Assembly (NCBI GenBank): GCA_037447655.1
Contig: JBBHKE010002469.1
Coordinates: forward strand, 217,820 to 277,819
DNA length: 60,000 nt
Direction of reading: 5' to 3'
Origin: Zygnema cylindricum
Taxonomy: Eukaryota > Streptophyta > Zygnematophyceae > Zygnematales > Zygnemataceae
Shown here: positions 1 through 38,147 of the stretch, in pieces
Numbering within the stretch: the first letter of the stretch is position 1
How the letters are laid out: each line of letters begins with the position of its first letter
Made by a program: the position numbers and the translations under genes
The notes under the pieces: generated by a model
What the model was told of the DNA's origin: nothing
What the model saw: only the letters and a program-made list of their open reading frames with translations
Databases searched by the model: none

Positions 1-608
1 AAATTGAAACGGATATTGCGCAAGTATTTATTACGGCTGAGATTCCATTTCGCGTCAAATCTAACGGCGCACATCATCGCCGAAATCTCGGAATGGTCAC
101 TTTGGAATTTAGTGACGTGGCATGACCTTGCGCCACGTGGAGAGATGACATTTGGTCGCGGGAATTCCGAGGAATGTACGGACGAGTGGAAAATGGACAC
201 GAGTCCGCCTAATGGCCTTGTCGTACAGAGGCCGTACAGAAAGTACATCGGCAGTAGTACTTCCAGGTACTGTACAGTGTTCTGATTGGTTCGTACAGGC
301 AGTAGATAGGAGTTGTGAGAGAGAACTAGGAAAAACTAGGACTTAGGAAAAATCAGGTAGATAGTCCTCTCTCTCTTTGAGAGTTTGTATAAATTGGCAT
401 CTTTGCCACCCTGTAACTTATCGCATGGTTGGGCGTTTCCAGAGATTTCTTTTTCTACGAACTTAAGGGAGTCCAAGCTGCACAGGGGTGCAGTCGGATT
501 GTCTGGTTGTCTGCTTGTGTTGAAGTGGTTACCATTGAAAGTTGGGTAGTTAATAACTATCTAAAGGCTTCCTGTATTCTGTAGTCCAATGGAGGACACA
601 TAATTGCA
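1..608 (+). repeat. Copia-family LTR (3' part, truncated by window start)
   Basis: This is the 3' part of the same LTR family found at 14462-15493, 27225-28221, 31721-33114, 35215-36351 and 38982-40121. It shares the GTAC-rich U3 block (about 231-285), a TATA-like TGTATAAA near 386-393, the 'tggttgggcgttt' and 'aggggtgcagt' blocks, and the conserved end '...ATGGAGGACACATAATTGCA'. The sequence after base 608 is not the family primer site (GGTTATGGGCCC) but remnant pol of a Ty3 element, so this is a solo LTR or a 3' LTR inserted upstream of the DNMT segment. Its 5' end and left target duplication lie outside the window. Confidence 0.8.
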
Positions 609-1843
609 TAATGTTCATGTGTCTGGCTGTTACCTAATGAATTCTACATCCTCTCCGGCGGAGTTGTTTAACAGTTCAACAGATATCGCAGAGGACATCT
701 AGCATTTCCCGATTTCCAAGCGGTGGGAGGGGGAATACGTAAATAGATTGTTGCAGTTGGCAAAACTCCAGCGGGGAGTAGATCATGCTTTCTCGGTCTT
801 ATTATTACCAAAAAGAGATTCGACAACCCGGTCAGATGTTTTCCACACCAAGACTGGTAACGAGGACTTTAATTCACAAGCGTTTTCATTGAGAGTCCAT
901 GACACCAGACTTCTGATTTTATCTTTATTTTCAGGAATTAGTTCGGACTTGGAAGCCGTTTTGAAATCAAGATATCGCGTGGAATCATATACAGCAGTGG
1001 AAATTTCAATGGAGGCAAGAGCTGTCAGTGAACACCGGCTCCATCAACTGCACCATTTATATCCTCAACAGCTTTCAGTGTTTGCCATTTCCAAAGCTCA
1101 CCGGAGTCTTCCCCAGAATGTGGATAACATAATGGCACCTCATTTAGCTAGTCTGGGCAAAGTAGATATGATTGTGGCGGGTTGGCCTTGTCAGGGATAC
1201 TCCCTAGCAGGATAAGGAAAAGGACATGAGGACCACAAGAGTGGCACATTCTATCGGATGATTACCTTAATATCATGGATCCAGCAGCTCCAGGAACACA
1301 CCAGTGGGGTAAATCCTGGAGAATGTTCACCCGGGAGATGATAAACGGAAGAAGGTTATTGACAGCTGGAAACAAGTAACCCAAATTTTAGGAGCTCCCT
1401 TCGTTTTTGACGCTGCTCAGATGGGATCCCAAGCACACAAACTCCGAGCATATTGGACCAATATGATCCCGTTTCCAGTCCTCCGGCAACTGTTGGAAAA
1501 GTAGACCCCCGACCCACAGATTTCAGTACATGAGATACTTGGGAAAGGGAGAACGGCAACACCTGTAACAAAACCGGATCGAACTCCTTTCTTCCTATGC
1601 AATACGCTCGAATATCTACGCCGAGCCCTCTCCACGTTGGTCTCTTTCCCCCGGAGTCACGCCTATCGGAAATGAGCAAGTGGGATGATTTTTGACAGCA
1701 AGGCAGGAATTGAGAAGTCACAAACCATTTCGGAACGAGAACACGCCATGGGATTCCATCCGTGCGAACCAGGTATTTCAAACCCACAGAGGTGCAGCTT
1801 AATAGGGCAGAGCATGGATTTGAATGACATTACATGGGTTACA
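609..1843 (+). pseudogene. E1: DNA cytosine-5 methyltransferase domain of a Ty3/gypsy polyprotein (decayed)
   Basis: The first 260 bases are a remnant that aligns in protein with the post-protease linker of E2 (about 13600-13790). The rest is a methyltransferase of the class that transfers a methyl group from SAM to C5 of cytosine. Visible motifs in order: I 'LSLFSGI' (919-939), II-like 'AVEIS', IV 'AGWPCQGYS' with the catalytic Cys codon at 1189-1191, VI 'ILENVHP' (1313-1333), VIII-like 'AHKLRAYWTN' (about 1430-1465), IX 'ISEREHAMGFHP' and X 'LIGQSMDLNDITWV' (about 1725-1840). The order and the AHRxRYxWxN-like motif VIII resemble DNMT3/DRM enzymes rather than DNMT1. A stop at 1213-1215 and later frameshifts break it. 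It runs on in frame (from 1685) into the Ty3 RT tether, so it belongs to the element's pol and is not a neighbouring host gene. A bacterial Dcm-type enzyme is less likely because of the pol fusion and the second copy at 13800-15840. Confidence 0.85.
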
Positions 1844-3770
1844 AAACACGCTCTTGCCTATTCCAGTCTCGATTCTCCAAATTCACGCAGAAGTTTCTTT
1901 GAAGCTCCTAAATTGTTGTCCATGCAAGCAACTCTGGAGCTTGAGGGGGGGAGAGAGAGGAGAAAAATTCTACACCCAAGAGTTCCTTCAGTGGGAGGGA
2001 AAGGTAGTTCAAAAGGGGACAGCTTAGCGGAAATTGTCAGCAGTAAATTATTATCCGGAGGGGTAGATGCGGATCCACAAGTTGGGCTAGAATTCAACAT
2101 CAACCTCCGGGGGAGACCACCGGAAGCTTGGGCCGCGGTTGAGCCGAAAAAAATGGTCTTGACTCTGGGGGAGCAGCTGGACCCTCAACAGAAAGAGCAG
2201 CTAACAGAACTTTTGGCTAGAAAGAATCGGGTTTTCTCATGGTCAAAAACAGATGTCGGAATCTACAAAGGAACCCCCTTTTGGATTGACTTGATCAACG
2301 AAAGCGCAACTGTCTGGCAAATACAATATCCCCTAAGCTTCAAGGAAAAGGAGTTTATTACCGCAAAAGTCCAAACTTTGGTGGACGCCGCGTTAGTCCA
2401 GGAAAGTACTGGACTCCATGGGTTTGCTTCCCCCACAGTTCTCCCTCCTAAGAAGGACTCATCCAAGAAAAGTGTGGATTTTCGAATGTGTGGGGATTAT
2501 CGCATGCTGAACACGGCCACTATACCTGACCGATATCCAATGCCAACCCCGGAAGAGATATTCGACTCTCTTGCTGGGGCCACTATCTTCTCCACCCTGG
2601 ACATGAAGAATGGATTCCACCAGATTGCCATGGAAGCAAAATACCGGCAGAGAACGACATTCTGGGCAAGATCCAGACTTTATGAGTAAATTTGCATGCC
2701 CTTCGGACTGAAGAATGCACCCACCAATTTCCAACGGGCCATGGACGAAGCGCTCCGAGGAATCAATTGTGCCCGGTGCTACATCAACGATGTGATAATA
2801 TTCTCCGAGACCTTTGAAGTACACCTGGAGCATATCCAGATCCTTCTCCGGGCTCTTCAAGCAGCGGGTTTGAAATGTCACCCGGGCAAGGGTGTTTTTG
2901 GGGTGCAGAAAAATATTTACCTCGGACATGAAGTGACTCCCGAGACAGTGGGTCCCCATATGGTTAAGGTTGCCGCCCTGGACGCTGTTCCTCTCCCCGG
3001 GACATTTTTGCCTTGTGCACCTTTCTCGGACTGGCTAACTACTATCGTAGGTTTATTCACGAGTTTAGTAGTCACGCCCAGCCCCTAAATAAGCTCTTGT
3101 GCAAAGATAAAGAATGGCAGTGGGCCGAGGAACAACAGATCTCTTTCTAGTTCGTGAAGGATGCCTTGAAGCAACACACAGTGCTCCGGAGGCCCGATCA
3201 CCAAAGGCCTATCCTCCTTTACACTGATTGGAGCCGAATTGGATTGGGAACTGTTTTTGCTCAAGTTGATGACGCCGAGGCCGATTATGTGGTAGCTTAC
3301 GCCAGCCGGAGCAACAACCGAGCTGAGGGGAATTATAGTAGTTATCATGGGGAGATTCTGGTAGCTGTTTGGGCTATCCAGCATTTCAGGCCTTATTTGT
3401 ATGGGGTCCATTTCATAGTGATTACCGACCACCAACCCCTGAAATGGATCATGGAAAATAGTAAGTTGACCACCAGATGGGTGCTTATCCTGCAAGAATA
3501 TGATTTCAGCATTATCCACCGGGTAGAGGAAATCCATGGGAATGCCGACGGACTTAGCCGAATCCCTGATCCTTCTACACTGGATTCCACCGGGGCTCGG
3601 CATGACGAAGACCCGGAAATCAGTTTAGGACTCATCCGGGTATCCTCCGCCTTAATTTGGCTTCCTTCATTTGGGGGGGCATTGTCAACTTTTGCAGCAA
3701 ATGTTGAGGGGCAGGCACCCAAAGGAGCCGGAAGGAAGGACATGTGGAAAGACTCCGAAGCTCTCTAATC
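1844..3770 (+). pseudogene. E1: Ty3/gypsy reverse transcriptase and RNase H
   Basis: The frame continues from DNMT motif X through an acidic linker into a typical Ty3 RT start ('EQLDPQQKEQL', 'VFSWSKTDVGIYKGTPF'). RT blocks follow: 'DFRMCGDYRMLN', 'FSTLDMKNGFHQI', a stop at 2687-2689, 'MPFGLKNAPTNFQRAMDE', then 'CYINDVIIF' at about 2776-2802. The catalytic YIDD box reads YIND, so the first catalytic Asp is lost. RNase H begins near 3154 with 'ILLYTDWSRIGLGTVFAQ' and holds 'AYASRSNNRAEGNYSSYHGE' and 'ITDHQPLKWIMENSKL'. The RT would copy the element RNA to DNA and the RNase H would remove the RNA strand, in cytoplasmic particles. Several stops and frameshifts (2689, 3088, 3153) make it inactive. 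The protein is close to the copy at 15772-17560. Confidence 0.93.
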
Positions 3771-4960
3771 TATACAGCAGGGATTCCCTCTTCCCCATTT
3801 GGTTGGAGTTCAACTGTCTTGAGTGTAGACTCGGATGGCGGCGTATGAATGGGACCGAGGTGTTCCCCCTCCGAAAATTGTCAGATGGTACGAGGAAAGT
3901 GATTCCTCCTCCATCAGATTGAGAAAATCTGATTTCCAATCTCCATAAGCAACGCGGACACTTCGGACAGAAGCGCACCGCTTCCCTAATTACAGGTTCT
4001 TATTGGTGGCACGGGTTATGGGCCCAAGTCAACCAAATTGTATAGACTTGCTCTTCCTGCGATCGAGTTAAGGCATCTTTTGACAAAAAGGCGGGACTGA
4101 GTTTCATTCTCTTCCTATCCGGGGAATGTTTTATCCGTGGTCTTAGGATCTTTTGGGACCTCTTTCGACCAGCCGACGTGTGAATCGTTTTGTCCTGGTC
4201 ATGATTGAACATTTCTCAAAATGGAAAGAGCTTGTGATTATTCCCCAAAAGGAGTCCAAGTCCATTGCCGACTCCTTCTTGCACAGAGTCCTGTCAAAAT
4301 TTGGAGCGCCAGCAAAGGTTCTGACAGACCAGGGATCGGAATTCGCAGGAGAATTTACCAATATTTTGGAGAAACGCCTCATTGACCATCGACTTACCAG
4401 TCGCGACCACCCTTAAGCCGACGGTTTGGCGGAAAGGTGCGTACAAACAGTGAAGCGGTCACTACGAAAATATGTAGTTGATGAAGACTTGGGTGAGTGG
4501 GAAAAAAGGGTGCCTTGGATTGCCATGGGATACAAATTCAGCGGACATGCTTCTCTCCACTCCTATAGTCTTTACTTCATTTTACTTGGACGATATCCCA
4601 TTCTGCTCCGGGCTGCTTCGGCCCAAGCGGTGGTCTTCCCTGGAATGGATGAGAAAGGAACCGTCGAAAAACTGATCGCCGACCGTGCCAAAATTTTCCA
4701 TCGAGAGATACCTCTTGCCATAGGGAATTTACAGGCGGCACAACACCGGGATCAATTCTGGTAGTCCCAGCGCCGGAGCAAAGATTATGTTCCCCAACAG
4801 CGACAATTTATGCTGGGAGACTTTGTGTATCAAATGAAACAGAAAATGGATACGCTTGACATTTCTACTGGGCAGGTGATATTGAAAGTGGTGGAAGTTT
4901 CAAACAAGGGAGTTTTGACTTTGGAGGGGAAAGATGGTCGGAGAATTAAAGAGAATTAGA
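3771..4960 (+). pseudogene. E1: Ty3/gypsy integrase
   Basis: After a linker, the HHCC zinc-binding module is visible ('GHFGQKRTASL...CSSCDRVK', about 3955-4075), followed by the catalytic core: 'DLLGPLSTSRR' with the first Asp just after a stop (about 4143-4152), 'VLTDQGSEFAGEF' and 'ADGLAERCVQTVKRSL' containing the catalytic Glu (about 4320-4455). The core inserts the element cDNA into chromosomes. A GPY/F-like end follows ('FMLGDFVYQMKQK', 'VILKVVEVSNKGV', 4808-4920). Stops at 4141-4146, 4414-4416 and 4762-4764 and one or more frameshifts break the frame. Unlike the E2 copy, E1 keeps the catalytic Glu and both Cys of the zinc module. Confidence 0.9.
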
Positions 4961-5040
4961 TCAATGTGGCCCTTTGCCACCTCCGAGGATTGGAAGATGG
5001 ACCCACTTTCCACTTGACTTAATTCGTTGATCCTCTTTCT

Positions 5041-5183
5041 TGTTCATTATCCTGCAACTTGTCCTACCCGCAGCACGACATCTTGGTCTGCAATCAGTGC
5101 GCTCAGTGTTGGCATCCAACTTATCACCCTCCTCGTGGGAACCACGCTCTCCATCTCCAAGTCCATGGTTTGCCGGGAACTGT
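5041..5183 (+). pseudogene. E1: PHD-type zinc finger at the end of pol (decayed)
   Basis: Directly after the integrase end lies 'CSLSC...HDILVCNQCAQCWHP', and in another frame 'PSPWFAGNC'. The spacing Cx2C-x4-H-x2-(C)...W-F-x-G-N-C is that of a PHD finger, a domain that commonly reads histone H3 tails. Relative to E2 this copy keeps both Cys of 'CNQC' but has lost the Cys after His (now Tyr) and one Cys of the last pair (now Ala). A frameshift separates the two halves. Between the E1 and E2 copies all eight zinc ligands can be recovered, though the first pair is spaced Cx3C here instead of the usual Cx2C. Confidence 0.65.
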
Positions 5184-5188
5184 CTTTT

Positions 5189-5224
5189 CTTAGTCACGGT
5201 TGACTAAGAGGGGGGGGGGGGGGG
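5189..5224 (+). other. E1: perfect hairpin plus polypurine tract at the LTR edge
   Basis: An 8-bp perfect inverted repeat (CTTAGTCA, loop CGGT, TGACTAAG; 5189-5208) is followed by A and a run of 15 G (5210-5224) immediately before the LTR. The G run is in the position of the polypurine tract that primes plus-strand DNA synthesis. The same arrangement occurs at 19212-19239 in E2, with a changed loop (CGAT) and a shorter G run (7), so the stem is preserved. Confidence 0.7.
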
Positions 5225-6694
5225 AATTAGGGCACCGACCCGATAAACCAAAAACCCAACCCCTTTTCCCCGGTTCGATGGGGAAAGGAAGGGGGAGGGG
5301 AGATCTTTTTGCCTTCCCATGCACTCATTCCTATTCTCGGTCCTTTTGCCCCTCCTATTTGTGCATTCATGTCTATGGGAGGGATGGGGGCAACAATAGG
5401 CATGATCATTATTATGGGAAACCTTTGCAATGGTGGGTTCTTTGCAGGACTCTAAGGCCAACCACTTCGGGCAGTGGGCCTGCCCTTGGAATTCTCGGGC
5501 ACGCTCGATAGCTGTCAAGCTCGAGTGCTTTTCAGGCACCCTTAAATATTACCGAGGATTTCCGTACCCTATCGACCCGTGCTATAATTAGATTACGAAG
5601 AAGCGAGCACCAGCAGCCATAAGGATTATATTTTTTCCTCAACTGAACAGGATGCACTTTATTTCGCGCGTAATGGAGGCCGGACGACAAAGTTCTGTCG
5701 TTTGAAAGATCGCAATTCCCTTACCTAACACTAGCTTCCACCAGCCCTAGTGGTGGGGTACATTGTGGATTGCCACGTAGACTTCCAGACTTTAATCTAG
5801 ATTTTTCTGTTAGCTGTCTGTAGCAATTCAGTTCAGGTACAGCTGAACCAGTGGTCCATTCATTACATCAAGTCAAAGCTTGGCACTTCCGTGTCCTTTT
5901 CGTACTTTGTCTTAAAATTGTGGAACAAATAATAACTTCCGGCCGCGGATCTAGCCGTAGTCAGAGGTCTATTTTTTTGTCCTAAGTGTAGTACACATTA
6001 TTTTGTCTTATGGCAGTTCGGTTGCTGTTGCTTGTCGCTCATTGGCTAATAGCATTGGTTTGACTTTTGGGCCCGAAATTGGACAAGCTTTTGCTGTATA
6101 AGGCACTTGGGACCTAATGAGACAGGTTGCTTTTCAGTAGTGTATCCTGTGAAAACCCTCAGAAAATCCAACAAACCTTCTTTTGGAAGAATCTTTGTTT
6201 TGTTTTGAATCTATTGCCATCTTTGTTTTGGATCTGTCCATTGTGGGAATCATAGTTTGGGCTGGTAGTTGGCACTATCGTCCCTTTAGGTGATTTTTGG
6301 ATTTTTCGCTGCTTGAAACTGAGAAGAGTCTAGTCGGTTCCGAACAGCGGGCACCGAGGGTTGAAGGAGTTCCATACATATTTACATTACCATTGGGGAG
6401 AGTTTGCCTTTTATCATTGTCATCGTAAATAATCAGGGTATGTTAAGCTTGCTTCGCCATCTTCTATATCTTCCATCTGATATTTTATTTATGTGGTCAA
6501 GGTGATATTGCTAAATCTGAAACAGTCATTCCTTTTTATTTCTATATGTCAACGTGGTAGTGCATTTGTGTATTCGCTTGTAGTTTCTTTTGCTTTGGCG
6601 TGAACTTCCCGGAGTAAAATTGCAACTTCCTTGCATAGAAACAGTGGGTTTTGAGGGAACAAATGCTATAGACTTCCCGTGGATAAAGTGGGGG
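5225..6694 (+). repeat. E1: 3' LTR (about 1.47 kb)
   Basis: It begins AATTAGGGCACCGACCCGAT right after the polypurine tract and aligns along its length with 6695-8596 and 19240-20724. It consists of a 5' block (to about 5510) with a C-rich/G-rich self-complementary stretch (CCCCTTTTCCCC...GGGGAAAGGAAGGGGG), and a longer block containing three ATTGG (inverted CCAAT) boxes and GTATAAGG (6096-6103), which read as a promoter. The length matches the E2 LTRs once the insertion in E2 is removed (1470, about 1471 and 1485). The ends are not clear TG...CA. The next LTR starts at once at 6695. Confidence 0.75.
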
Positions 6695-6972
6695 AAATTG
6701 GGGTATCGACCCGATAAACCAAAATCTCAACCCCCTTTCCTCGGTTCGATGGGGAAAGGAAAGGGGAGGGGAGATCTTTTCGCCTTCCCATGCACTTATT
6801 CCTATTCTCGGTCCTTCTGCCCCTCCTATTTGTGCATTCATGTCTATGGGAGGGATCGAGCGATGGGCATAATCATTATTATGGGAAGCCTTTGCATTGG
6901 TGGGTCAGGACTCCGACGCCAACCACTCCGGGTAGTGAGCCCTTCCATTGGAATTCTCTGGCACGCTCGACA

Positions 6973-7403
6973 CGCCACGTAGGTTACAGTTTAAGATTCT
7001 AAAAATCTTGAAAAATATCTACAAATGAAATATCTGTACGAAATTTCTGTACCACCAGAGGTAATTAATGATTCGTATATAAAGTTTTCGGCTAGAATTT
7101 GATTTTGAAAGTGAAAATTAAATTTTCGAAACAGAATGGCAAAAAGACGCGAAAAACTTTAAAGGTCGCAGCAAACATTGAATGTCGGCGGATGTGAGAC
7201 GAAGTTTGCGAGGATATTTTCACGTGATGACTTCCATTCAACGTGGCATGAGGAACATGGCATGTACGACGTGCACGCCTGTGATCGCTTGAACAACGTA
7301 GATTTTATTTTTCTTTTTCACGTGTACCAATGGTAGTGAATGGCATTCATGTAGTGGGCCCCAACTCTCCTCCGCAAGGAGAGTTGAGGCCCACTAGACG
7401 ATG
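6973..7403. mobile_element. Insertion of unknown type inside the E2 5' LTR
   Basis: The other two LTR copies pass directly from '...GCTCGA' to 'TCAAGCTCGAGTG', while this copy has about 431 extra bases between them. The insert is AT-rich in its first half, has no coding potential, contains CACGTG twice-like stretches and ends with a strong hairpin (7353-7395). No clear terminal inverted repeat or target duplication was found, so its class is open (a short non-autonomous element or a piece of one). Confidence 0.5.
7353..7395. repeat. 19-bp-arm hairpin
   Basis: The arms AGTGGGCCCCAACTCTCCT and AGGAGAGTTGAGGCCCACT are reverse complements except at one position, with a 5-base loop (CCGCA). It lies at the right end of the insertion in the E2 LTR. 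It could be a structural end of a small transposon. Confidence 0.8.
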
Positions 7404-7930
7404 TGTCAAGCTCAAATGCTTTTCAGGCACCTTTTTATATTACTGAGGATTTCCGTACCCTTCCGACCCGTACTGTTCTCAGATTACGGAGAAGCGAACA
7501 CAACCAGCCAGAAGGATTATAATATTTCCTCAACTAAACAAGACGCACTTTATGTCGCACCTAATGGAGGCCGGACGACAAAGTTCTACCGTCTGAGAGA
7601 TCGCAGTTCTGTTACATGGCACTAGCTTCCACCAGCCCTAGTGGAGGGGTACATTGTGGGTTGCCACGTAGACTTCCGTACTGTAATCTAGATTATGATT
7701 TTAGCTGTCTGTATCAATTCAGTTCAGGTTCAGCTGACCGGTGGTCCATTCATTTCATTAAGTCAAAGCTTGGCACTTCCGTGTCCGTTTTGTACTTTGT
7801 CTTAAAATTGTGGAACAAATAATAACTTCCGGCCGCGGATCTAGCCATAGTCAGAGGTCTGACTTTTTGCCCTAAGTGTAGTACACATTGTTTTGTCTTA
7901 TGTCAGTTTGGTTGCTGTTGCTTGTCGCTC

Positions 7931-7991
7931 ATTGGCTAATAGCATTGGTTTGACTTTTGGGCCCGAAATTGGACAAGCGTTTACCGTATAA
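7931..7991 (+). promoter_or_regulatory. E2 LTR promoter: three ATTGG boxes and TATA
   Basis: Three ATTGG motifs (7931-7935, 7944-7948, 7968-7972; inverted CCAAT) precede TATAA at 7987-7991. The same array occurs in the LTRs at about 6040-6103 and 20050-20113. The spacing and conservation suggest the RNA polymerase II promoter of the element, which would place U3 upstream and R-U5 in the last 600 bases of the LTR. Confidence 0.5.
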
Positions 7992-8865
7992 GGCACTTAG
8001 GGCCAAAGGAGACAGGTTGCTGTTTTCAGTACTGTCTCCTGAGAAGAACCATTGAAATTCCCACAAACTTTCTTGTGGGGAACTTTTGTTTTAAATGTGA
8101 TTGTGACCTTTTTGCCATCTTGGTTTTGCATTCGTCCTTTGTGCAAATCGTAGTCCGGTTTGGTGGTTGGCACTGTCTTTCCTGTTTGGGCGATTTGGGA
8201 CTGGTGTTTGTTGGAAACCGAGAAGGGTCTTGCCGGTTCCTGGTTGCGGAAACCAAGGAGTTAAAGAGGCCTTACCAATTTCGGTGTCTGCGGGAGAGAT
8301 TTCTTTCTCCTCTTGTTGTCAGCGTTACGTCTTGGGGGTAGGTTGAGCTCGCTTGCTATAATTCTACATTCTACCTTTATACTCTATTTTTTTCTTCTAC
8401 GGCAAGGTGATTGTGAGACAACATATCTATATTTTATCCTTTGATTTTTCTTAGTGAATGTATCTTTGTTCTCTCTTTGGTAGTCTTTATTGGGGCTTCG
8501 TTCGGTTTCCTTTCGGGGGTCAATTACCACAATCTTTTGGACCAAGATAGTGGATTTTGAGGGAATCTTTGCTAGACTTTCATCACGTCCGTTACAGTAC
8601 TGAAAACATCCACCTGTCACTTTAGGTTAAAGAGGACAAGCGCTCAGGTCGAAGTACTTTCATAACTGGATTAAGTCCTTCTTTTCCCAGTCAGCTACGG
8701 GGGGAGGAGAAGTTCAGGATAAGGATCTTCCGGGCGTCCCATCGGAAGAGCAAGAGAGGCAAGCAGCTGTTCTCAGGAAGAAGAGTCACAGATGCCCGAG
8801 GAACCAGCCCAATTCGGCTCACCGTCGCACATTGAGCAGTTTCTTAAGGGAATGGTGCTCGGCTG

Positions 8866-11690
8866 TTGCAGTTGAGACCTCTCCGAAGCAGTCAGACGAG
8901 AGACCCTATCCTCCACCTCCACTTGTCTTCTCACCCGAGAACTTCCCAACTTTGTCTGAAGTTGCCAGAGTCAGGGCCGCGACGAAGGCGTAGAAACCTC
9001 CATTCTCTCCTAAATCACGTAGGACCCACAAGGAATCGGTCTCGGGTCCCCGCCCCGAAATTGGATGCTATATCGGATCTAAGGCCCCAACAGTTGAAAT
9101 GTTCATGGATTCGGCGATATTGGCAGACCCTACCTGGCCAGGTCGAAAAGAAATTTTAGCCCTTCAAAATCTCCATGAGTTGAAGGTTAAGAAGGAGTTG
9201 GTGCAGCGGGTAGCGAGAACCGACAATGTCATGATTGTACGCCCTGTGGGAGGAGTTGTTGAGATACTGAGTAGTTCATATGGGAGCGACTCTTCGACCC
9301 CCAACCGGGAGCAACGAGGGATGCCCTCCAATTCGCGCCCACAGCCCACCCAATCTCATGACACTGCGACTAGCAGACCATCCAGGGGCGGGCAACCTCT
9401 CGGACCCTAGTCGGAGGGGGGGGTAAGCCAGCATGGATTACCGAAGCCTGAGAGAGTGCATCGGTTTGATCATCAGGACCACAAGGGCAGGTTCGCTCTC
9501 CGACCCAAAGAGGAGCCATTCTTCCCCTCCGCCTTTATATCTCTTACCTCCCTATCTCCACCAGCACCGGTTGTTTGACCTTCCAAAGGGTTGTGGCGTT
9601 CCCGACCCACAAACCCCGAGGTACCAGGCTTGGGGATTGCGGATCTCGCAGGGGTCGTGAGCAGCACCCAAAAACTTGTGGACATTCTTTTGACACAGAA
9701 CAAGGCTACGGCGGGGACCGGACCTGTCACCATATCCTAGGAGGCTCTTGAAAAGGAGAGGAAGGAGGCATTTGAACATGAACTACCTCTCATTCAAGAG
9801 GCTAAACGGAGGGTAGGAGGAATTCTTAGGGGACAGGTATCTTCTCCTCAGAGGACTGTAGACCACCCCGGGGTCAGGCAACTCAGCATGCAACCCAGGC
9901 TCCAAGGACTTCTTTGGGTTTTAGACCGGAATCTCCTGTTCAGCGGGAAGGGGAGGAAACCACAGGGCCTAACATGAAGGGTTTGGGTGCAGATTACCGC
10001 CTGAGTCCGCTTCTCTGCTCGTAGAGCGTCTACCTTTGTCTCAGTGGAGGTTGCTTCCGCCGTGGAGGCTTTGGTGGAGTTATGACCAGACGAGAGGGTG
10101 CACATTCCCTTGAGAGCGTCAATAACCCTTTCCCCATCACCCGGAATACCTTCAGATTCTCCACCTCCTCCTCCTCTATATTTCTCTCACTCCCCGGGTT
10201 CCACTACGGAACTGAGGGACACTCCTTCTCCAACTGTTTCTCCAGTAGGCGCCGTCCGTGGGTCCCCGGATCCACCAGTATTACCGTACAAGTACGACGT
10301 ACCCGCCTACTCCCCACCTCATCGACGTTCCCCTTCTTCCAGCTTAGGGGTTCCGCCGTCAAAGACATCTAGGAGGCGAAATAGGAGACAAACCCCCTTT
10401 CCTACCAAGGTGCAGCAGTCTCCACCACAGTCCGTTCCACAACATTTGGACAGACCTTGTCTCCACATCCCATCAGTGGAGGCAGTTCTAAAAGAGGAAC
10501 AATACGCTTCTGGATTCAGAGGAGTCCTGCATCCGACTTCTCCTTTGTCAACCAGATCATCCCCAGAGGGGGGAAAGAGAACAGAAGTTTCACCCGTCCA
10601 TTTCAGTGGAGGGGAAGGCGGTCCGGATCCCAAAGACGCGGATCTAAGGGTTGTTTCATCGGTTCAATTTGCCAGTCCCACTCGGCCTTCTTCGCCCCAT
10701 TTTAAAAACCTCGTGGAGGAGGAGAAAATGGGTGACGTAAGGATTTTTACAGGGGACAGTTCAGGGATTGCTTTCTCAGATTTCGAATTGTTGTGGAAAT
10801 CTTTTACACAATCCAAGATAAACAAATATAGGGGTGGAGCAATTCCAACTGACTTCGAAACTACCCTATTTCCCATGATGGTAAATTATCTCGCTGGGGG
10901 GGCTTTAGCGGACTACAAAGAGCGACAGCCTCTCTTACTGGCTCCCAGCATCAAAATTTCAGATCCTATCCTTGATGCGGCAGTCTTACAAGCCGAAGCA
11001 GACTTGGCTGCAGGTGCAGCCACTCCAGTCACAGCCGGCTTTACAGATGATATGGAACTTGAGGCACAAAGTCAAGCCTATGTCAACCAGCTTCAAGCCA
11101 TCCAAGCCGCCAGGGCAGCTACCCGGATGGTTGTAGATCCAACACCCTTTACTACTCTTTTGTACTACTCTTTTGGACACCTGGAGGCTCCTTTACACCG
11201 AAAGGAATGAATCGGCTAACAAGGAATTTACAGAATTCCGTTGTCAAAAGAGTGAAACTCCCCAGACTCTTTTGAACAGATTGTCGAGCCTTTGTCAAAA
11301 GACAAAACTATCAACCATCGATCTTCCAGCTATGACTGCCAAATACTTTATCGCGGTTCGAAACTCCTTTGGACCCACGAGGCAGGCATCCCTCGATAAT
11401 TCGATTGCCGGGCAGGCCATTTAGGACATCAATCCATCAGCTAAAGAAATCTAGTTGGCCGCAATGAAGCTTTACGACCATTTCGTTCATAGAGAGGCCC
11501 AAGAGAAGACGGGGACCGGCAAACACAGGGGAAACTTTGCCGAATTTGCCGGAGAAATGCCTCCTGAAAATTTTGAGTCGGTCGAACTCCTAGCTTTGCG
11601 GAAGATTAAGGGGAAACAGGTGGTGGATAGCGAATCAAACCCGCAATGGGGGCCAATTACCGTGTCTTCCTATACAACTCTTTAAATTGT
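8866..11690 (+). pseudogene. E2: gag, N-terminal and capsid-like part
   Basis: This stretch follows the 5' LTR and a short leader. It is open in pieces: about 9099-9410, a long frame 10098-11210 (370 codons), then about 11170-11690 in other frames. The 10098 frame starts with a Ser/Pro-rich low-complexity region (first 170 residues) and passes into a capsid-like helical region ('VRIFTGDSSGIAFSDFELL', 'FPMMVNYLAGGALADYKER', Ala-rich coiled stretch 'AILQAEADLAAGAA'-like), continuing after a frameshift as 'KEFTEFRCQKSETPQTLLNR' and 'VRNSFGPTRQASLDN'. This is the layout of Ty3 gag (capsid that packages RNA). The assignment rests mainly on position before the zinc knuckle and protease. The Pro-rich N terminus is unusually long. 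Confidence 0.6.
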
Positions 11691-12912
11691 CTACAAACAG
11701 GTTGTGGATGGAAGCGCTGCCCCGGGAAACTCAAACCAGAACTAGCTCTCAAGCAAAAGGAATGGGAGAAGGAGACAGGTGAAAGGACCAAGAGGCAGCA
11801 GGAAAGGAAACAAGGAGGAGGATCGGAAGACAAAACTCTGGTTAACAAAGACAATTACTGTCCTACCCCCCGATGCGAAACTGCAAAGATGTCATAAACC
11901 CAGTTGCGACAGATCAAACTTCCAAAATTCCGCAAATCTCTAACGAATTGAGGGGCAAATATACCACTGAGGGTTTCAAGTGTGAGGCTTGCGGGTTCAT
12001 GGGTCACAAAGAGAGACAGCGTTTCTAAAAGAATGGGGTCTTAAAGGAGATGATGCAATATGCACTGTTTACCGACGGAGGTGAAACTGTTGTGAATCCT
12101 CTTCCTCTGCAACTTCTCCACCATTGGGGACGCCGTACCACGGAAGAATCAGAACGACAGCAAACAGGTCAAACAGGACTCACTCCGGAGATTATCATCC
12201 AAAAGCATAGCCAACACATGGCCGCAATGGCAGCAAAATTGGCAGCACTGCGATTAGCAAACCCTTCCGGACTACTGTTTTGACGGCTGCTGAGAAACTC
12301 CACCGGAGAGAACAAGAATTACTACAAAAGCTTGAGGAGCTTGAACAGGAAACCGCGGCGGGCAAAGACGATGACGATATAATGGGATGGGACATGGAAC
12401 CTCTTAAAGCTCATCACGCACAAACCTCCCTTTCTGGAGCCTGGAATGTCGGCATGAGAGACAGTAGAAGGCAGTTTCGTAACTAAACATCGGCACAAAG
12501 AAGAGACAAGCAAAGACTGGCTCCAGGAGACCACCATTAGAAAATGAGTGGACCTTTGTCCTTCACCCCCAGGGTAGTCATCCTGAAAGACACATTAGGC
12601 CTCGGAATCAAACCCACAAACCCGTCACCTCCAGTCGCAAAGAAATTGCCTACAGGATTCGAGAATTATAGGACTACTGACACCAAAGAGATGGAGAAAC
12701 AAGCAAAAGAGGAAGAGAAACAGGACAACCAAGACTGGTTCGAAAAATATTTGGCGGAACGTCCTCAAGATACCACACCCGAAACGCCACCCGAACAGGA
12801 ATCCGATCAGAAAAGTGAGGAAACCAGAGGTGGGGAGCAGGAAATATCAAGGGAACCTGCCGATTCCCCAATTTAATCGCCAAAAACTCAACCTCCTTCC
12901 TCCAAACCAACA
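11691..12912 (+). pseudogene. E2: gag C-terminal part with nucleocapsid zinc knuckle
   Basis: A Lys/Glu/Gln-rich charged stretch (11700-11900) is followed by 'CEACGFMGHKERQR' at 11981-12022, a CCHC zinc knuckle (Cx2Cx4Hx4C) in which the last Cys has become Arg by a single base change. Such knuckles bind the packaged RNA. After a stop, a Glu-rich probable coiled coil (12280-12400) and an acidic linker (12544-12876) lead to the protease. Stops and frame changes are frequent. Confidence 0.6.
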
Positions 12913-13545
12913 GTGATGTTAGTGATGCATTTAATGCCCAATGCCCTCACTCACGTGAAAACACTGACATCTTCCCATAACCTGCTGGAAGAAATTATCA
13001 TCCATGCCCTTGGAGAAGAGATTCACTCAGGGGGTGAGAACACAGATCAGGCCAGATCCGTCTTTTGGTCAGCAGATCCAAAGACACCTATTACGAATAG
13101 GGATTATAAAATTTTTTCTGTGGCTCTAATACTCAATCGGACAGGAAATTTCAAACTCAATGGATACAGCGGATATCACGACGCGGTTGTCGATACAGGA
13201 GCACTCCCAAATCTAATAACCACATCGGTCGTGCAACAAATGCCTGAAGAACTCCGACCAGAAATCTGTCCCAATAACTTTTGCCTAAGCATTGTTAGAA
13301 CTGGAAACCAGCCCGTCCATGGAATAATCAAAGCTATGTTAATCAAGTTGACCGATGATCCAGGTCAGAAAGTCCGCATTCAGCTTCCCTTCTTGGTGGT
13401 GGAAGGCAAACAATTTGAAATTCTGCTGGGAATGGCCACTTGGATAAGGTTGAATATGGAATTAAGTGTTTGGAAAAAACAGTTTACTGTTCGGGATCCT
13501 GAAGATCTAGAAGGGGTCAAGGTGGTGGTCCTCCTGGATCTATGA
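12913..13545 (+). CDS. E2: aspartic protease (open frame of 210 codons, part of a broken polyprotein)
   Basis: The frame holds 'DAVVDTGALPNLITTSVV' with the catalytic DTGA (about 13187-13201) and, 60 residues on, 'FEILLGMATW', the conserved ILG block that closes the retropepsin fold. It would dimerise and cut Gag-Pol. The upstream ATG at 12913 is unlikely to be a true start, since in an intact element this would be read as part of gag-pol. It is followed after a frame change by the DNMT segment. This is one of the best preserved parts of E2. Confidence 0.8.
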   Translation: MMLVMHLMPNALTHVKTLTSSHNLLEEIIIHALGEEIHSGGENTDQARSVFWSADPKTPITNRDYKIFSVALILNRTGNFKLNGYSGYHDAVVDTGALPNLITTSVVQQMPEELRPEICPNNFCLSIVRTGNQPVHGIIKAMLIKLTDDPGQKVRIQLPFLVVEGKQFEILLGMATWIRLNMELSVWKKQFTVRDPEDLEGVKVVVLLDL

Positions 13546-15840
13546 AATCGAGGGAAAAACAATGCCCCAGTAGCCGGATGTTATCCTGTCTATGCAACCC
13601 ACACTCTTACAGAATTGCTCGCAAGCGCCACCAATATCGGAGACGTGATATATCAATTCCCTATTTCCAAGCAGGGGGTAAAAGGATACCAGAGCAAATT
13701 AAGACAAATAGCAACACTTCGGCTTGCCAAGGAAAAACACCTCAAGGAGAGCCTTCGGAGGTTCCTCCCGAAAATCACACATTCCATCGACAAGTGGTGT
13801 CATTATCAATTACGGATTTGGGTTTCCGGATATCATCCTTATTTTTTCGAATTAGCTCAAACTTAGAGGCTGTATTAAAAGCAGGATATAAAGTGGAGTC
13901 TTTTGTGGCCGTAGAAATCTCACCTGAGGCTCGGGCCGTCAGTGAACACCGACTACAACAGCTCCACCAATTGTATCCCCAGCAACTACCAGTATCCGCA
14001 ATCTGTAGATCTCACCGGAGCCTTCCACAAAATATAGACTATATCTTGAAACCTCATCTAGCTATGCTCGAACGAGTAGATCTGGTAATAGCAGGATAGC
14101 CATGTCAGGGATACTCACTGGCAGGGAAAGTCAAGGGGCATCAAGACAGCAGAGGTCAAACCTTTTTCCAAATGATCAATTTAAATGCCTGGCTGCAACA
14201 GTCCCAAGACACACCAGTGGGGTACGTTTTGGAAAATGTTCACCCGCGAGATGTCAAATGAAAACAGGTCGCCCATAGCTGGAATCAAGTCAAGCAGATT
14301 CTAGGAGCTCCACTTATTTTCGATGTAGCACAAATGGAATCCTGGGCTCACAGAGTTCGGGCGTACTGGACAAACTTGATACCTATGTCAGTCCTAAACA
14401 AACACTTACATAACCACAAGAGAAATCCCCAGATTACTCTGCAACAAATACTAGGGTCAGGTGTAGAAACTAATGGTTTTAAAGTATTTTCTAGGTCTGA
14501 AAAGAAATAAAGAAGCTGAGGCAGTCTATCTCTAACTTCTCTCTCCAACTCTCAAACTTGTCGCAGTCACTGAGAAATTGGAGAGGAAGCTAGAGCCATG
14601 GCTACCTAGGCTATCCTGAGGTTTACGGGAAATTTATATTAGTTAAGGTTTATTTATTTAAAATGTATGTGGCGGCGACAGGAATTGATCCTTGTACCTA
14701 CCGGCCCGCAGACAGGAAATAGCCGGTAGCCTTAGCCGTTAAGTCTAGGATTAATGTTATGTAGTATATAGTTTGATAATTAATTAAATACGTATACGTA
14801 TGATAATTCATTTAACTATAACAGATTACAGGATACATAGATCCGGTAATATATTAAGTACGGATTACGGTACGGACTAAAATTCAATACCGCGCATTTG
14901 TTTCGTAAGTGAAACAAATACCGCGCATGTATTTATTACGGCTACGATTAAATTAGATTCTAATCGGACGACCCCAATTAGCGCCGAGATCGCGGAGGAA
15001 GATTTCGGCGGTTTGTGGGCATCGCCACATCGGATGACGCGTGGTGAAATTACGTTGGATCGTGGAATCTCCGGAGATTAAGGCACCGAATTCGGATATG
15101 ACATGTGTCGACATTTAGGCCATGTCGTACAATGTCCGTACCCAAAGTACACCGGCAGCTGTACTTTTGCGTACGGAACTCTATTCTGATTGGTTCCGTA
15201 CATCAGTAGATAGAGTCTGTGAGAGAGATAGGACTTAGAAAAATTTAGAAGATAGGACCCTCTCTCCCAGAGAGCTTCTGTACAAAAGGTCAACTTTGAC
15301 CCTCCATAACTTACTGCTCAGGGGAGCAAATTCAGAGATTTTTTTTGCTATCGACCCAAGGGAGTCTTGCCTTCACAGGGGTGCAGGTGGTCAAGGTTTT
15401 TGTCTGCCAGGGTGGCAGTTATTTTTGCTGAAACACAAAGAGGCTTCTTGGAAGCTGTCTACTCTGAGGACTTATGGAGGTCTCAGAGTTTCATCAGGGT
15501 GGATGGCCGCTCTAGTGACCAAGGCTGATCGACCTCCATTCTACCGCTGCAACCAACCAGGGGCACCACGACGAGCTTTGCCAACCTTGGTTTCTTTCTC
15601 CAACAGCCACGCGTATCGCAAAGTAGCGGCAAGAATGATATTCGACAGCACAATTCGAGTTTGGACCACACCAACAGTGATAGAACGAGAACAAGCAATG
15701 AGATTCCAACCTGACACCACGGCAGCACCAGGTATTCAGACCTCAAAAGGTGCTGCCTTCTTGGACAAAGCATGGATCTCAATGCAATCACTTGGGTGAT
15801 CAAACATTCTCTTGCCTTTTTTAGCCTAGAGTCTCCTCAG
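13546..15840 (+). pseudogene. E2: DNA cytosine-5 methyltransferase domain, split by a solo LTR
   Basis: This is a second copy of the DNMT seen at 609-1843. Motif I is degenerate ('LFFRISSNLEAVL', about 13840-13880). Then come 'VAVEISPEARAVSEHRL', motif IV 'VIAG*PCQGYS' with the catalytic Cys kept but the Trp codon changed to TAG (14097-14099), motif VI 'YVLENVHPRD' (about 14222-14252), motif VIII 'AHRVRAYWTNLIP' (about 14348-14386), and the start of the target recognition region up to 'LGSG' at 14461. A 1032-bp LTR interrupts here. After it the frame resumes (15499 on) through 'LVSFSNSHAYRK', motif IX 'VIEREQAMRFQP' and, after a frameshift, motif X 'MDLNAITWVIKH' (15772). It sits between protease and RT in pol. 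DNMT3/DRM-like order, inferred by motif reading only. Confidence 0.85.
14462..15493 (+). mobile_element. Solo copia-family LTR inserted in the DNMT domain
   Basis: The LTR starts TGTAGAAAC and ends GAGTTTCA. It is flanked by a perfect 5-bp duplication TCAGG (14457-14461 and 15494-15498). Removing the LTR and one TCAGG restores an uninterrupted DNMT reading frame across the site. Family marks are 'GTATTTTCTAGGTCT' near the start, the 'GAGCCATGGCT' block, the antisense tRNA-like block (14681-14747), the GTAC hairpin (15136-15176) and 'CAGGGGTGCAG' near the end. No internal sequence is present, so it is a solo LTR. Confidence 0.92.
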
Positions 15841-17560
15841 TCCCGGGCTAGCTACCTTCAAGCTCCACAGTTATTAGCAGCACAGGCCGCTTGGCAGCTT
15901 GAGAGGGGGATGGAGGCAAAGAGACGGAGACAGATTTTGTCATCAAAATTTTCCAGTCCCAGCATTTCACCCAAATTAAGGGATTTTTCAGTGGGGGGGA
16001 GCGGAGGCTCGGAAGGTGACAACTTAGCGGAAGTTGTTAACATCAGCATTTTGACAGGAGGAGGGGAAGTACACCCACAAGTAGGGTTGGAATTTGATAT
16101 CTCCCGGTGGGGTAGACCCCTTGAGGCTAGGGCAGCGATGGAACCTGGGAAGATGGATTGGACCTTAGGAGAGCAGTTGGACCCTAAGCAAAAGGCCCAG
16201 CTTTCCAACCTGTTGGAGAAGAACAAACAAGTATTCTCCTGGTCAGACACCGACGTTGGCATCTACAAAGGGACCCCCTTTTTGATCGATTTAATAGACG
16301 AGACAGCTACTGTTTGGCCGAAGCAGTACCCGCTCAGCTCAAGGAAAAGGAATTTATCACGGCAAAGGTACAAACCCTGGTGGAAGCAGGATTGGTGCAG
16401 GAAAGTACTGGACTCCATGGGTTCGCGTCCCCAACCGTTCTACCTCCCAAAAAAGACTCGTCTGGGAAAACGGTAGACTTTCGAATGTGTGGAGACTACT
16501 GGATGCTTAACACGGCAACCATACCTGACCGATACCCAATGCCTACTCCAAAAGAGATTTTTGACTCGGTGGCCGGGGCCACCATTTATTCCACATTGTA
16601 CATGAAAAATGGGTTCCACGAGATCGCATTGGAGCCAAAGCACCGGGAGAGGACATCGTTTTGGGCGGGGTCCAGGTTGTATGTATGGCTCTACATGCCA
16701 TTCGGGCTAAAAAATGCACCAGCCAAATTCCAACGTGCCATGGACGAGGCGCTTCGGGGAATTGACTGTGCACGGTGCTACATCGACATTGTTATTATCT
16801 TCTCGAAGACTTTGGAGGAACATCTGGAGCACATACAGATCATACTCCGAGCTCTCCAAGCAGCGGGCTTGAAATGTCACCCGGGTAAGGGAATTTTTGG
16901 GGTGCAGAAAATTATTTACCTGGGACATGAAGTTACACCCGGGACAGTGGGTCCCCATATGGTCAAGGTGGCAGCCTTCGATGCCCTTCCTCCTCCTCAT
17001 GACGTCTCTGCACTACGCACTTTTTTAGGCCTGGCTAACTAGTACCGAAGATTCATCCCTGAATTCAGCAATCACGCTCAACCATTGAACCAATTGTTAA
17101 GGAAAGACCACGAATGGCAGTGGGCGGAGGAGCAACAGATTTCCTTCCAGTTTTTGAAGGATTCCCTTAAGCAACACCCAGTGCTCCGGATGCTCGATCA
17201 TCAGAGGCAGTTCCTCCTTTACACGGATTAGAGCCAGTTTGGATTGGGAGTTGTTTTAGCTCAACTGGATGATGTATGGGCTGAATATGTAGTAGCTTAC
17301 GCCACTAGGAGTAACAATCGGGCGGAGGGGAATTACAGCAGCTACCACGGGGAATTACTGGCGGCAGTTTGGGCCATCAAAAATTTCGGCCATATCAATA
17401 CGAAGTCCACTTCACTCTGATTATAGATCACGAACCTCTCAAGTGGATTATGGAGAACAGCAAGCTCACTGCGAAGCTCGCCAGGTGGGTGCTAATACTG
17501 CAAAAATATGATTTCGACATAATCCACCGGGCCGGAAAAATCCAATGCTGACGGACTTGG
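15772..17560 (+). pseudogene. E2: Ty3/gypsy reverse transcriptase and RNase H
   Basis: The frame from DNMT motif X runs into 'GEQLDPKQKAQLSNLLEKN' and 'VFSWSDTDVGIYKGTPF', then shifts to 16314-17042 with 'DFRMCGDYWMLNTATIPDR', 'MPFGLKNAPAKFQRAMDE' and 'CYIDIVIIFSK' (about 16780-16806). The YIDD box reads YIDI, so the second catalytic Asp is lost. After a stop at 17040-17042 ('GLAN*YRRFIPEF') the thumb/RNase H region continues with 'QFLLYTD*SQFGLGVVLAQ', 'AYATRSNNRAEGNYSSYHGE' and 'IIDHEPLKWIMENSKLTAKL' to 17551. Protein identity with E1 is high, so the copies are from one family. Confidence 0.93.
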
Positions 17561-17627
17561 CAAAAATCCGGATCCTTCCACTAGAGGTTCCACCGGGGCC
17601 CGTCACGATGAAGATCTCGAAATCAGT

Positions 17628-19015
17628 TTGGGACTCATTCGAGCATCCTCTGCCTTTATTTGGCTTCCTCAATCTGGGGGGGAATTGTCAACTTTCTCAG
17701 TAGACATGGAGGGGGAAGCACCAATAGGAGCCGGGCGTAAGGATATTTGGAATGATCCCGACGCCCTCCAATCTATCCAACAAGGTTCTCCTCTTTCCCA
17801 TTTGCCTGGAATGCAGTTATCTCGCGTTCAAAGACAAATGGGGGCGTACGTGTGGGAGCGAGGCATTTTAATCCGAAAATGGGCAGACGGTACGAGGAAA
17901 GTGGTTCCTCCTCCGGGTGATAGAGAGACTCTTATTTTTCGCCTCCACCAACAATGTGGTCATTTTGGGCAGAAACGGACCACCTCCCTGGTCACACGAT
18001 CGTACTGGTGGCACGGGTTGCGGACCCAAGTCAACCGGATTATGCAGACGTGCTCTTCCAGTGACCGCGTTAAAGCAGCTTTCAACAAAAATAGAGACAC
18101 CCAGCTTCATTCCCTACCAATCAAGGGAATGTTTTATCGGTGGTCTCTGGATCTGCTGGGTCCTCTCCCCACCAGCAGACGAGAGAACCGCTTTGTATTG
18201 GTAATGATAGAGCATTTTTCCAAGTTGATCGAATTGGTGGTCTTACCTCGGAAGGAGTCCAAAGCGATTGCGAACGCATTCTTGCAGAGAGTGTTGTCCC
18301 AATTTGGGGCCCCAACCGAAGTTTTGACAGACCAGAACTCCGAATTTGCGGGAGAATTCTCCAACTTGTTGGAATTGTGCCTCATCGACCACCGCCTTAC
18401 CAGCGAAGATCACCCACAAGCCGACAGTTTGGCCAAAACATGCATACAGACAGTGAAACGGTCACTGCGCAAATATGTTGTGGAAGAGGATATAGGAGAG
18501 TGGGATAGAAGGGTGCCTTGGATCGCCATGGTGTACAGGTTTAGCCGGCAAGCCTCCCTCGACTCCTACATCCCTTACTTCATTTTATTCGGACGACATC
18601 CCATTCTTCCCGGGGATGCCTCGGCCCAAGCAGTGGTCCTCCCGAAAATGGATGACAAGAGAACCGTCGAAAAATTGATCGTCGACTGTGCGAAAATTTT
18701 CTACCGGGAGATACCTCTCGCCATGGGGAATTTGCAGGCGGCATAACACCGGGATCAATTGTGGTATTCCCACCGCCGGAGCAGAGAATATGTGCCTTGA
18801 CAACGACGATTTATGCCGGAAGACTTTGTGTATCGAATGCAACATAAAAAGGATACGCTTGACATTTCTGCCCGGCGGGTGATTTTGAAAGTGGTGAAAG
18901 ATTCCAACAAGGGAGTTCAGACTTTGGAGGGAAAAGATGGTGGAAAATTTAAAGAAAATCAGATCAATGTGGCCAATGCTATCTCCGAGGACTGGAGGAC
19001 GAACCCACTTTCCAC
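17628..19015 (+). pseudogene. E2: Ty3/gypsy integrase (372-codon open frame plus tail)
   Basis: The open frame 17628-18746 contains the zinc module 'LHQQCGHFGQKRTTSLV...CSSSDRVK' (second Cys of the last pair changed to Ser), then the catalytic core: Asp in 'WSLDLLGPLP' (18149-18151), Asp in 'VLTDQNSEFAGEF' (18328-18330) and 'ADSLAKTCIQTVKRSL', where the catalytic Glu seen in E1 has become Lys (18435-18437). The core could therefore not catalyse integration even if expressed. The tail to 19015 (after a stop) has 'FMPEDFVYRMQHKKDTLD' and 'VILKVVKDSNKGVQTLEGK', the GPY/F-like C-terminal domain, and leads straight to the PHD finger. Confidence 0.9.
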
Positions 19016-19042
19016 TTGACTTACTTTGCCAATCCTCTTGCA

Positions 19043-19186
19043 TGTTCATCATCCTACACCCTCTCCTCCCCGCAGCACGATATCCTTGTCTGCAATCAGT
19101 ACAGTCAGTATTTGCATCCAGCTTGTCTCCCCTCCTCGTGGGAACCACACTCTCCATCCCCTAGTCCATGGTTTTGCGGGAACTGT
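19043..19186 (+). pseudogene. E2: PHD-type zinc finger after the integrase
   Basis: The frame 19016-19198 reads 'ACSSSY...DILVCNQYSQYLHPAC...SPWFCGNC'. The spacing C-x2-(Y for C)-x4-H-x2-C-x16-C-x2-C, with Trp two residues before the last Cys pair, matches the PHD consensus. 'DILVCNQ..QY.HPAC' corresponds to the usual 'LLLCD.C.R.YH..CL' core. Two ligands are lost (Tyr for Cys twice) compared with E1. In chromoviruses a chromodomain sits at this place and directs integration to marked chromatin; the PHD may play the same part here (inference). It is an 'add-on' after integrase and before the polypurine tract. Confidence 0.7.
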
Positions 19187-19211
19187 GAATTGGGCGGGTA
19201 ATTTTTTTTTT

Positions 19212-19239
19212 CTTAGTCACGATTGACTAAGAGGGGGGG
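19212..19239 (+). other. E2: hairpin plus polypurine tract
   Basis: CTTAGTCA-CGAT-TGACTAAG (19212-19231) is followed by A and seven G (19233-19239), directly before the 3' LTR. It has the same stem as at 5189-5208. Confidence 0.7.
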
Positions 19240-24501: not shown

Positions 24502-24511
24502 NNNNNNNNNN
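24502..24511. other. Assembly gap (10 N)
   Basis: Ten unknown bases lie within the microsatellite edge. The true repeat length is unknown. Confidence 1.
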
Positions 24512-24588
24512 CCATAGCAAGTAAAAGCTGTAATAGAAATGCCGTTCGGTAAGTGCGAGGATTGACTGTTAGTTGGGGAAGTAACCAA

Positions 24589-38140: not shown

Positions 38141-38147
38141 ATAAGTG

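Follow-up and report, generated by a model that had tools for sequence, protein, structure and literature searches.

We analysed a window of 60,000 nucleotides of Zygnema cylindricum DNA (contig JBBHKE010002469.1, positions 217,820 to 277,819), at the start of which lie two gypsy-type retrotransposon copies that share one orientation, copy A (about 609-6972) and copy B (7404-21006). In both, a cytosine-5 DNA methyltransferase (DNMT) domain stands between the protease and the reverse transcriptase (RT) of a Ty3/gypsy-type pol, as an initial annotation made from the sequence alone had proposed, and the same arrangement recurs in L006 and L015, undamaged relatives elsewhere in the genome. Copy B is complete in outline; copy A is truncated on its 5' side by a copia-like long terminal repeat (LTR), found by self-comparison. 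The features of the two copies are listed below, X and Y denoting two repeats and TSD a target-site duplication.

57..608, strand not given: copia-like LTR truncating the 5' part of copy A; 67.5% to 27680-28221 in self-comparison, and probably a copia LTR judging from this match to a copia region
700..702, plus strand: copy A, in-frame TAG upstream of the DNMT (TAG-CAT-TTC), remnant of a conserved stop
904..1850, plus strand: copy A, DNMT3-like domain with motifs I, IV, VI, VIII, IX and X; stops and a frameshift
1676..2689, plus strand: copy A, open frame spanning motifs IX-X, the tether and RT (RVT_1, 2.6e-7)
3151..3768, plus strand: copy A, RNase H (PF17917, 4.8e-30)
5225..5507, plus strand: copy A, repeat Y1
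5513..6690, plus strand: copy A, repeat X2, start TGTCAAGC, 3' limit approximate
6695..6972, plus strand: copy A, repeat Y2, end CTCGACA
7400..7403, plus strand: copy B, left TSD, GATG
7404..8595, plus strand: copy B, repeat X1, 5' end of the element, TGTCAAGC; 90.7% to X2
10086..12876, plus strand: copy B, gag region in broken frames, placed by order; no Pfam match in 10086-11207
12877..13545, plus strand: copy B, aspartic protease region (DTG) with its own stop at the end (Asp_protease_2, 0.0017, below cut-off)
13720..15800 (approximate), plus strand: copy B, DNMT3-like domain, interrupted
14462..15493, minus strand: solo copia LTR of 1032 bp inside the copy B DNMT, with the 5-bp TSD TCAGG on both sides
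16188..17042, plus strand: copy B, RT (RVT_1, 1.8e-21)
17523..18746, plus strand: copy B, DDE integrase with H2C2 zinc domain (rve, 1.3e-9; Integrase_H2C2, 2.8e-12)
19060..19198 (approximate), plus strand: copy B, C-terminal PHD finger remnant in broken frames, recognised by eye; present in relatives
19229..19239, plus strand: copy B, purine run AAGAGGGGGGG directly ahead of Y1, a putative polypurine tract
19240..19521, plus strand: copy B, repeat Y1
19525..20723, plus strand: copy B, repeat X2
20724..21006, plus strand: copy B, repeat Y2, 3' end of the element, CTCGCCA
21007..21010, plus strand: copy B, right TSD, GATG

Both window copies are dead pseudogenes, disabled by stops and frameshifts, and copy B is also split by the solo copia LTR. 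In copy A, motifs I (LFSGI) and IV (AGWPCQGYS) share the open frame 703-1212, motifs VI (ENV) and VIII (DAAQMGSQAHKLRAYW) lie in a second frame, and motifs IX-X run stop-free into the RT tether and RT in the frame 1676-2689. Motif I of copy B is degraded, its motif IV reads PCQGYS directly behind a stop, motifs VI (ENV) and VIII are present, and motifs IX-X follow the 1032-bp insert. The initial annotation had placed all six motifs in both copies, in frame with the RT tether. The full set stands for copy A and all but the degraded motif I for copy B, but the shared frame extends only to motifs IX-X in copy A and motif X in copy B. Segment 703-1212 of copy A matched Pfam DNA_methylase at E 0.0014 (18.5 bits, short of the cut-off of 22), and the pieces of copy B gave no Pfam methylase match. 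The two copies, X-masked, are 59% identical, and the distance between the copies is 0.43 for the DNMT and 0.18 for the RT; judged by their sequences, the copies are old and are not recent duplicates of one another.

Taken alone, the window's broken frames and interrupted copy B would also suit DNMT copies that belong to the host, or that inserted separately and only happen to lie beside retrotransposon genes. A Pfam-family search of the whole genome (352.8 Mb, 2689 contigs) for further copies, a step the initial annotation had recommended, gave 782 candidates and 123 scored places, 123 of 123 above the Pfam cut-off. Reading the best 20 of these 123 places in full, all of them found through their DNMT, we assigned 19 to the element (15 to a class 1 and 4 to a class 2) and one, L007, to a host methyltransferase. 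L006 carries DNA_methylase (2.6e-13) and RVT_1 (5.9e-27) in a single open frame of 750 amino acids. L015 has a CCHC motif and a protease (both weak), the DNMT (6.7e-12) and the RT (2.8e-10) within 1137 open residues, and its open stretch measured 2395 residues in the genome search; L016 is 99.9% identical to it over 1137 amino acids. Because these undamaged relatives carry DNMT and RT in one open frame, the presence of the DNMT domain in pol is confirmed.

The two classes are deeply separated (identity of 41.8% over 328 DNMT residues and 42.5% over 200 residues around the RT), and the DNMT occupies the same position in pol in both. DNMT and RT distances agree closely among 17 copies (Mantel r 0.934; none of 2000 permutations gave as high a value). 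The ratio of nonsynonymous to synonymous substitution rates (dN/dS) of the DNMT was 0.10-0.24 in the 9 usable of 16 comparisons, which are non-independent, as L006 takes part in seven of them and the members of the pairs L019/L020 and L008/L009 are alike; the other 7 comprised five saturated comparisons (one of them of the gag-protease part) and two between nearly identical sequences. In one pair the values were 0.12 for part of the DNMT, 0.07 for the RT and 0.08 for the integrase. These values indicate that the DNMT domain is under purifying selection, with the reservation that synonymous sites in class 2 are saturated and yield no dN/dS value. The shared place in two deep classes, the agreement of DNMT and RT distances and the purifying selection together indicate that the DNMT is an inherited part of the element, long held in it and still under selection. 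The supposition of host genes or separate insertions is refuted by the single open frames spanning DNMT and RT, the same place in classes about 42% alike and the agreeing distances; nor did we notice, around the DNMT, ends of its own such as a separate insertion would have. The annotation had likewise argued that this was not a neighbouring host gene. As for L007 (G000:C514), it consists of host chromomethylase-like exons, which matched 4fsx, presumably maize chromomethylase, and two more chains at about 2.8e-28, the next group following at 2e-12; the PDB names are all DNA methyltransferase 1. Chromomethylases are plant enzymes, and this gene points to a probable streptophyte host.

RVT_1, RT_RNaseH, H2C2 and rve follow one another in pol order in L022, L024 and L036, with a protease upstream that falls below cut-off, indicating a Ty3/gypsy-type order of protease, RT, RNase H and integrase with an integrase of the DDE type. 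The same long repeat at both ends, as in the LTRs of Ty3/gypsy elements, was not found: X stands at the 5' end and Y at the 3' end. Because these split repeats replace ordinary LTRs, the label gypsy applies to pol only. From the domains, their order and the open frames, the predicted polyprotein runs gag, protease, a UAG stop (class 1) or open frame (class 2), DNMT3, RT, RNase H, DDE integrase and PHD finger.

In class 1, the protease frame stops at a TAG and the DNMT starts directly after it. The stop is TAG in 13 of 14 readable class-1 loci and TAA in L017 (L010 has lost the region), and CAA-TTC follows it directly in 12 of 14. This context is conserved across subfamilies whose synonymous sites are saturated; at the window stop sites, copy A reads TAG-CAT-TTC and copy B TAT-CAA-TTC. 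In the class-2 locus L015, protease and DNMT share an open frame uninterrupted by any stop. The sequence UAG-CAA is similar to the leaky stop found in tobamoviruses and in some retroelements, and our literature search for a leaky-stop motif in retrotransposons found no paper. Readthrough of UAG-CAA-UUC in class 1 would yield a small amount of a DNMT-RT-integrase fusion. At the other end of pol, three class-2 frames carry a C-terminal PHD finger (PF00628, 3.3e-10, 2.2e-10 and 1.8e-11), and the window has likely remnants of it, identified by eye, at the same place. For class 1 this module is less certain: its PHD finger scored 2e-4 to 3e-3 in three frames, below the Pfam cut-off, and is weakly constrained (dN/dS 0.38 and 0.76). 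A literature search for a PHD finger in algal retrotransposons also found no paper.

The methyltransferase itself had been likened to DNMT3 or DRM, and only the first half of that proposal stood. The alternative is a captured plant DRM, which would have a permuted motif order (VI-X, then I-IV): DRM is the common plant member of this methyltransferase branch, and DRM2 appears among the profile matches (6e-7). However, DNMT3A is the top match by sequence, profile and predicted fold, ahead of DRM2 by many orders of magnitude, and the motifs come in unpermuted order, with I ahead of IV, VI and VIII in 10 of 10 aligned copies and X following in the 8 that reach it. The unpermuted order argues against DRM, an origin we consider highly improbable, and sequence, motif order and predicted fold agree in indicating a DNMT3-type domain. 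(A single-sequence AlphaFold model of L019, with a pLDDT of 33.9, was of no use.) Overall, we are confident that the element, in identity and anatomy, is a retrotransposon with a Ty3/gypsy-type pol and a captured DNMT3-type cytosine methyltransferase.

Five copies (window copy B, C1374, C1344, C449 and C1042) have the layout X1-coding-Y1-X2-Y2; C1974 and C1407 agree with it as far as readable, C544 and C1920 have X-coding-Y only, and C1662 and C633 were not readable to the end. X begins with TGTC and Y finishes with GACA, so that the element ends are TGTC...GACA, and the Y1-X2 joint is GACA-GC-TGTC in six genome copies. A class-2 joint pattern occurs 294 times at no more than one mismatch, against 1 for the reversed control. 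In one class-2 subfamily, again with up to one mismatch each, we counted 128 X starts against 1 in the control and 20 joints against 0, the longer pattern undercounting the joints. Joints account for only 10 of the 44 listed exact X starts; for 20 of the others the left flank was read, and each differed from Y. From these X starts without a preceding Y, we take TGTC to be the true end of the element. The end of X2 is joined to the start of Y2 with 1-3 bases between (C1374, C1344 and window copy B, three comparable copies), and a run of G stands before Y1.

Exact 4-bp TSDs flank two of the five full copies, window copy B and C1344, and three of five places at which an X start and a Y end lie about 1.17 kb apart, each taken as an X-Y unit with its middle unread. 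The X1 and X2 of C1344 are identical over 931 bp, marking it as a recent insertion. Among 20 sampled X starts (exact, non-joint), 15 were unscorable, 2 lacking a right window and 13 a true Y end; C1607 has an ACGACA by chance that is not a true Y end. No Y2 end was readable in C605, C1381, C597 and C742, and C1460 was left out of the count because GACAAC, a near-joint, stands in front of both X starts there.

Several observations weigh against integration as a split-repeat unit with TSDs. The window's own Y-X joints are altered; at C449 the two flanks agree in 3 of 4 bases; C1374 and C1042, complete in their four repeats, show no target duplication; and none was found at C544, C1920, C1333, C1287 and C1844. 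Two of the five X-Y units lack one as well. A tRNA primer site at the X end was not found by eye, where TGG-like stretches were rejected as candidates since they differ between copies. X-Y units flanked by 4-bp duplications resemble solo LTRs and, together with the X-coding-Y copies C544 and C1920 and the full copies lacking duplications, would fit an ordinary LTR element that tandem arrays or recombination have made to look split. Yet the five full copies, which come from two classes, have no Y next to X1 and one extra Y ahead of X2; in one subfamily, most X starts have no Y in front of them; and C1344 shows the split arrangement together with an exact TSD and two X copies that are identical. 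We therefore regard an ordinary LTR element as quite unlikely, and the free X starts also led us to reject Y-X LTRs in tandem; a split-repeat element remains the preferred reading. A phage-integrase (tyrosine recombinase) search gave no match at E 0.01 in the 8 frames scanned, where pol has an rve and H2C2 integrase instead.

This is a known kind of element. The initial annotation had left it open whether the lineage was the same as published ones or new; likened by published description, it is the same kind by features as KnitGypsy-Dnmt3 of Klebsormidium nitens, from a 2018 report of DNMT-bearing retrotransposons in dinoflagellates and K. nitens (PMC5890265). According to the text and Fig. 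4c legend of that report, KnitGypsy-Dnmt3 has a Dnmt3 in the pol of an LTR Gypsy with a DIRS-like repeat layout. The shared features are an unrearranged Dnmt3-type DNMT inside the Pol frame of a gypsy-type element, the DIRS repeat layout with gypsy domains (here in the five full copies named above) and, as described for the K. nitens copies, intronless copies under purifying selection (PMC5890265). The present element differs in coming from another genome, of 352.8 Mb against 104 Mb for the K. nitens assembly (PMC11096116), and in falling into two deeply separated classes; 19 of its copies were read here, out of 123 scored places. The words PHD, readthrough and target site duplication each occur 0 times in the main text of PMC5890265; the UAG stop, PHD finger and TSDs are thus additions relative to that text, and may be shared with the K. 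nitens element. Two further features, a Pro-to-Glu change in class 2 and element ends inside the reverse-transcription repeat (both described below), were not found in those parts of its text that we consulted. Within the scope of our literature search, no other report of a DNMT in a gypsy pol was found; PMC12344493 places some DNMT3 members in LTR Copia and DIRS elements, citing the 2018 work, and the word gypsy is absent from the text consulted.

The capture could have been independent of that in Klebsormidium, as those of the two Symbiodinium DIRS types are of each other, given that domains have been captured repeatedly (PMC5890265). We consider this rather less probable than a common origin, since both elements belong to the same superfamily by pol, carry the same DNMT family within Pol and have the same DIRS-like repeats. 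SymbioDIRS-Dnmt3 of Symbiodinium also has Dnmt3 in a pol with RT and split repeats in the order A-coding-B-A-B (PMC5890265), but it has a tyrosine recombinase in place of a DDE integrase and belongs to an unrelated retrotransposon class. Like DIRS and PAT elements, the present element has split direct repeats with an internal joint of the ends; unlike them, it has a DDE integrase and 4-bp TSDs. In PAT, the internal joint equals the joined ends. Some DIRS elements carry an adenine methyltransferase (PMC5890265). Chromoviruses, Ty3/gypsy elements described as having a chromodomain after the integrase, likewise bear a chromatin-reader module at the integrase C-terminus, which here is a PHD finger, with a DNMT added. 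An orchid gypsy element with an AlkB m6A demethylase (PMC9289625) similarly holds a captured nucleic-acid-modifying enzyme, as far as described an RNA demethylase in an extra frame and not a DNA methyltransferase in pol.

Beyond copies A and B, a class-2 element remnant lies at 24589..26366 (minus strand), containing RT and the sequence that directly follows DNMT motif X (61-86% to L015); its DNMT part is lost and a copia element adjoins it. Right after copy B, 21205-23694 has inverted ends of about 475 bp that are 90% alike in self-comparison, and is perhaps a DNA transposon. The region 26357-40122 is copia-rich, with repeats 70-91% alike, strong GC skew and an observed-to-expected CpG ratio of 0.58. 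Another gypsy-like element spans 43818-51619, with frames at 45000-48510 (minus strand) and direct repeats at 43818-44789 and 50647-51619 (85%); no DNMT match was seen in it. Long TA-rich microsatellites occupy 24186-24552 and 52518-52670, and a 10-base N gap lies at 24502-24511. Scans of the window with Rfam (gathering cut-offs) and for tRNAs gave no match.

The repeat layout suggests a replication route. Reverse transcription would start at the purine run that precedes Y1 and continue up to the X end, and its product would carry Y-X at each end. Ligation of these cDNA ends would close a circle, visible as the X2-Y2 joint, and the integrase would cut the circle at the palindromic Y-X joint GACA-GC-TGTC, giving the permuted, DIRS-like structure. 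We judge the chances of such a circular intermediate to be about even: the integrated ends lie inside the repeat that reverse transcription would make, and the copies without duplications are unexplained by this route. DNMT packaged with RT would methylate new DNA before or at integration, and the PHD finger would tie the complex to histone tails. As to what methylation does for the element, we infer that a new copy would arrive bearing the mark of resident DNA, reducing recognition or harmful expression; this is the weakest step, and we put it forward tentatively, at somewhat less than even chances. CpG depletion was considered as a trace of self-methylation and rejected as not specific. The observed-to-expected CpG ratio of class 1 (0.61-0.74) is not below that of the window copia (0.58) or the other window gypsy (0.49), and class 2 (0.83-0.94) is little depleted, so that self-methylation leaves no specific trace.

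These ratios weigh against the proposed route, as does motif IV of class 2. PCQG is kept in 15 of 15 class-1 loci, whereas class 2 has ECQG in 5 of 5 (L004, L005, L015, L016 and a fifth given as C449 / L039; four independent, because L015 and L016 are nearly identical), a Pro-to-Glu change adjoining the catalytic Cys. The DNMT might then be a DNA-binding or structural part of pol whose methylation is dispensable, at least in class 2, where the domain is nonetheless still open in L005, L015 and L016 and CpG depletion is slight; the K. nitens domain, moreover, gave no methylation in yeast, a result its authors call inconclusive (PMC5890265). Against this, the catalytic Cys and the EN of motif VI are conserved in both classes, class 1 keeps PCQG throughout, and the SymbioDIRS-Dnmt3 domains are described as active (PMC5890265). 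We hold this reading to be unlikely. More speculatively, and with a probability we would place well below even, the element may couple a chromatin writer (DNMT3) and a reader (PHD) in one polyprotein and integrate circular, possibly pre-methylated cDNA through a DDE integrase with sites inside the repeats, in which case methyltransferases would belong to the split-repeat, circle-based route itself. If so, the adenine methyltransferases of DIRS, the Dnmt3 of SymbioDIRS and the Dnmt3 of this gypsy lineage would be instances of this one connection, and this lineage would have reached the same repeat layout with another integrase.

DNA methylation silences transposons, and it is therefore paradoxical for an element to carry and maintain a DNMT3 of its own. 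In outline this is a known kind of element, here with undamaged frames, signs of recent insertion and added features. The further genome, with two old lineages and near-identical young copies (L015/L016), offers a comparative system in which the PHD finger and the stop-codon context are handles on targeting and dosage. More generally, a methyltransferase is again tied to DIRS-like repeats despite another type of integrase, so that a connection of DNA methylation with circular cDNA can be put to a direct test.

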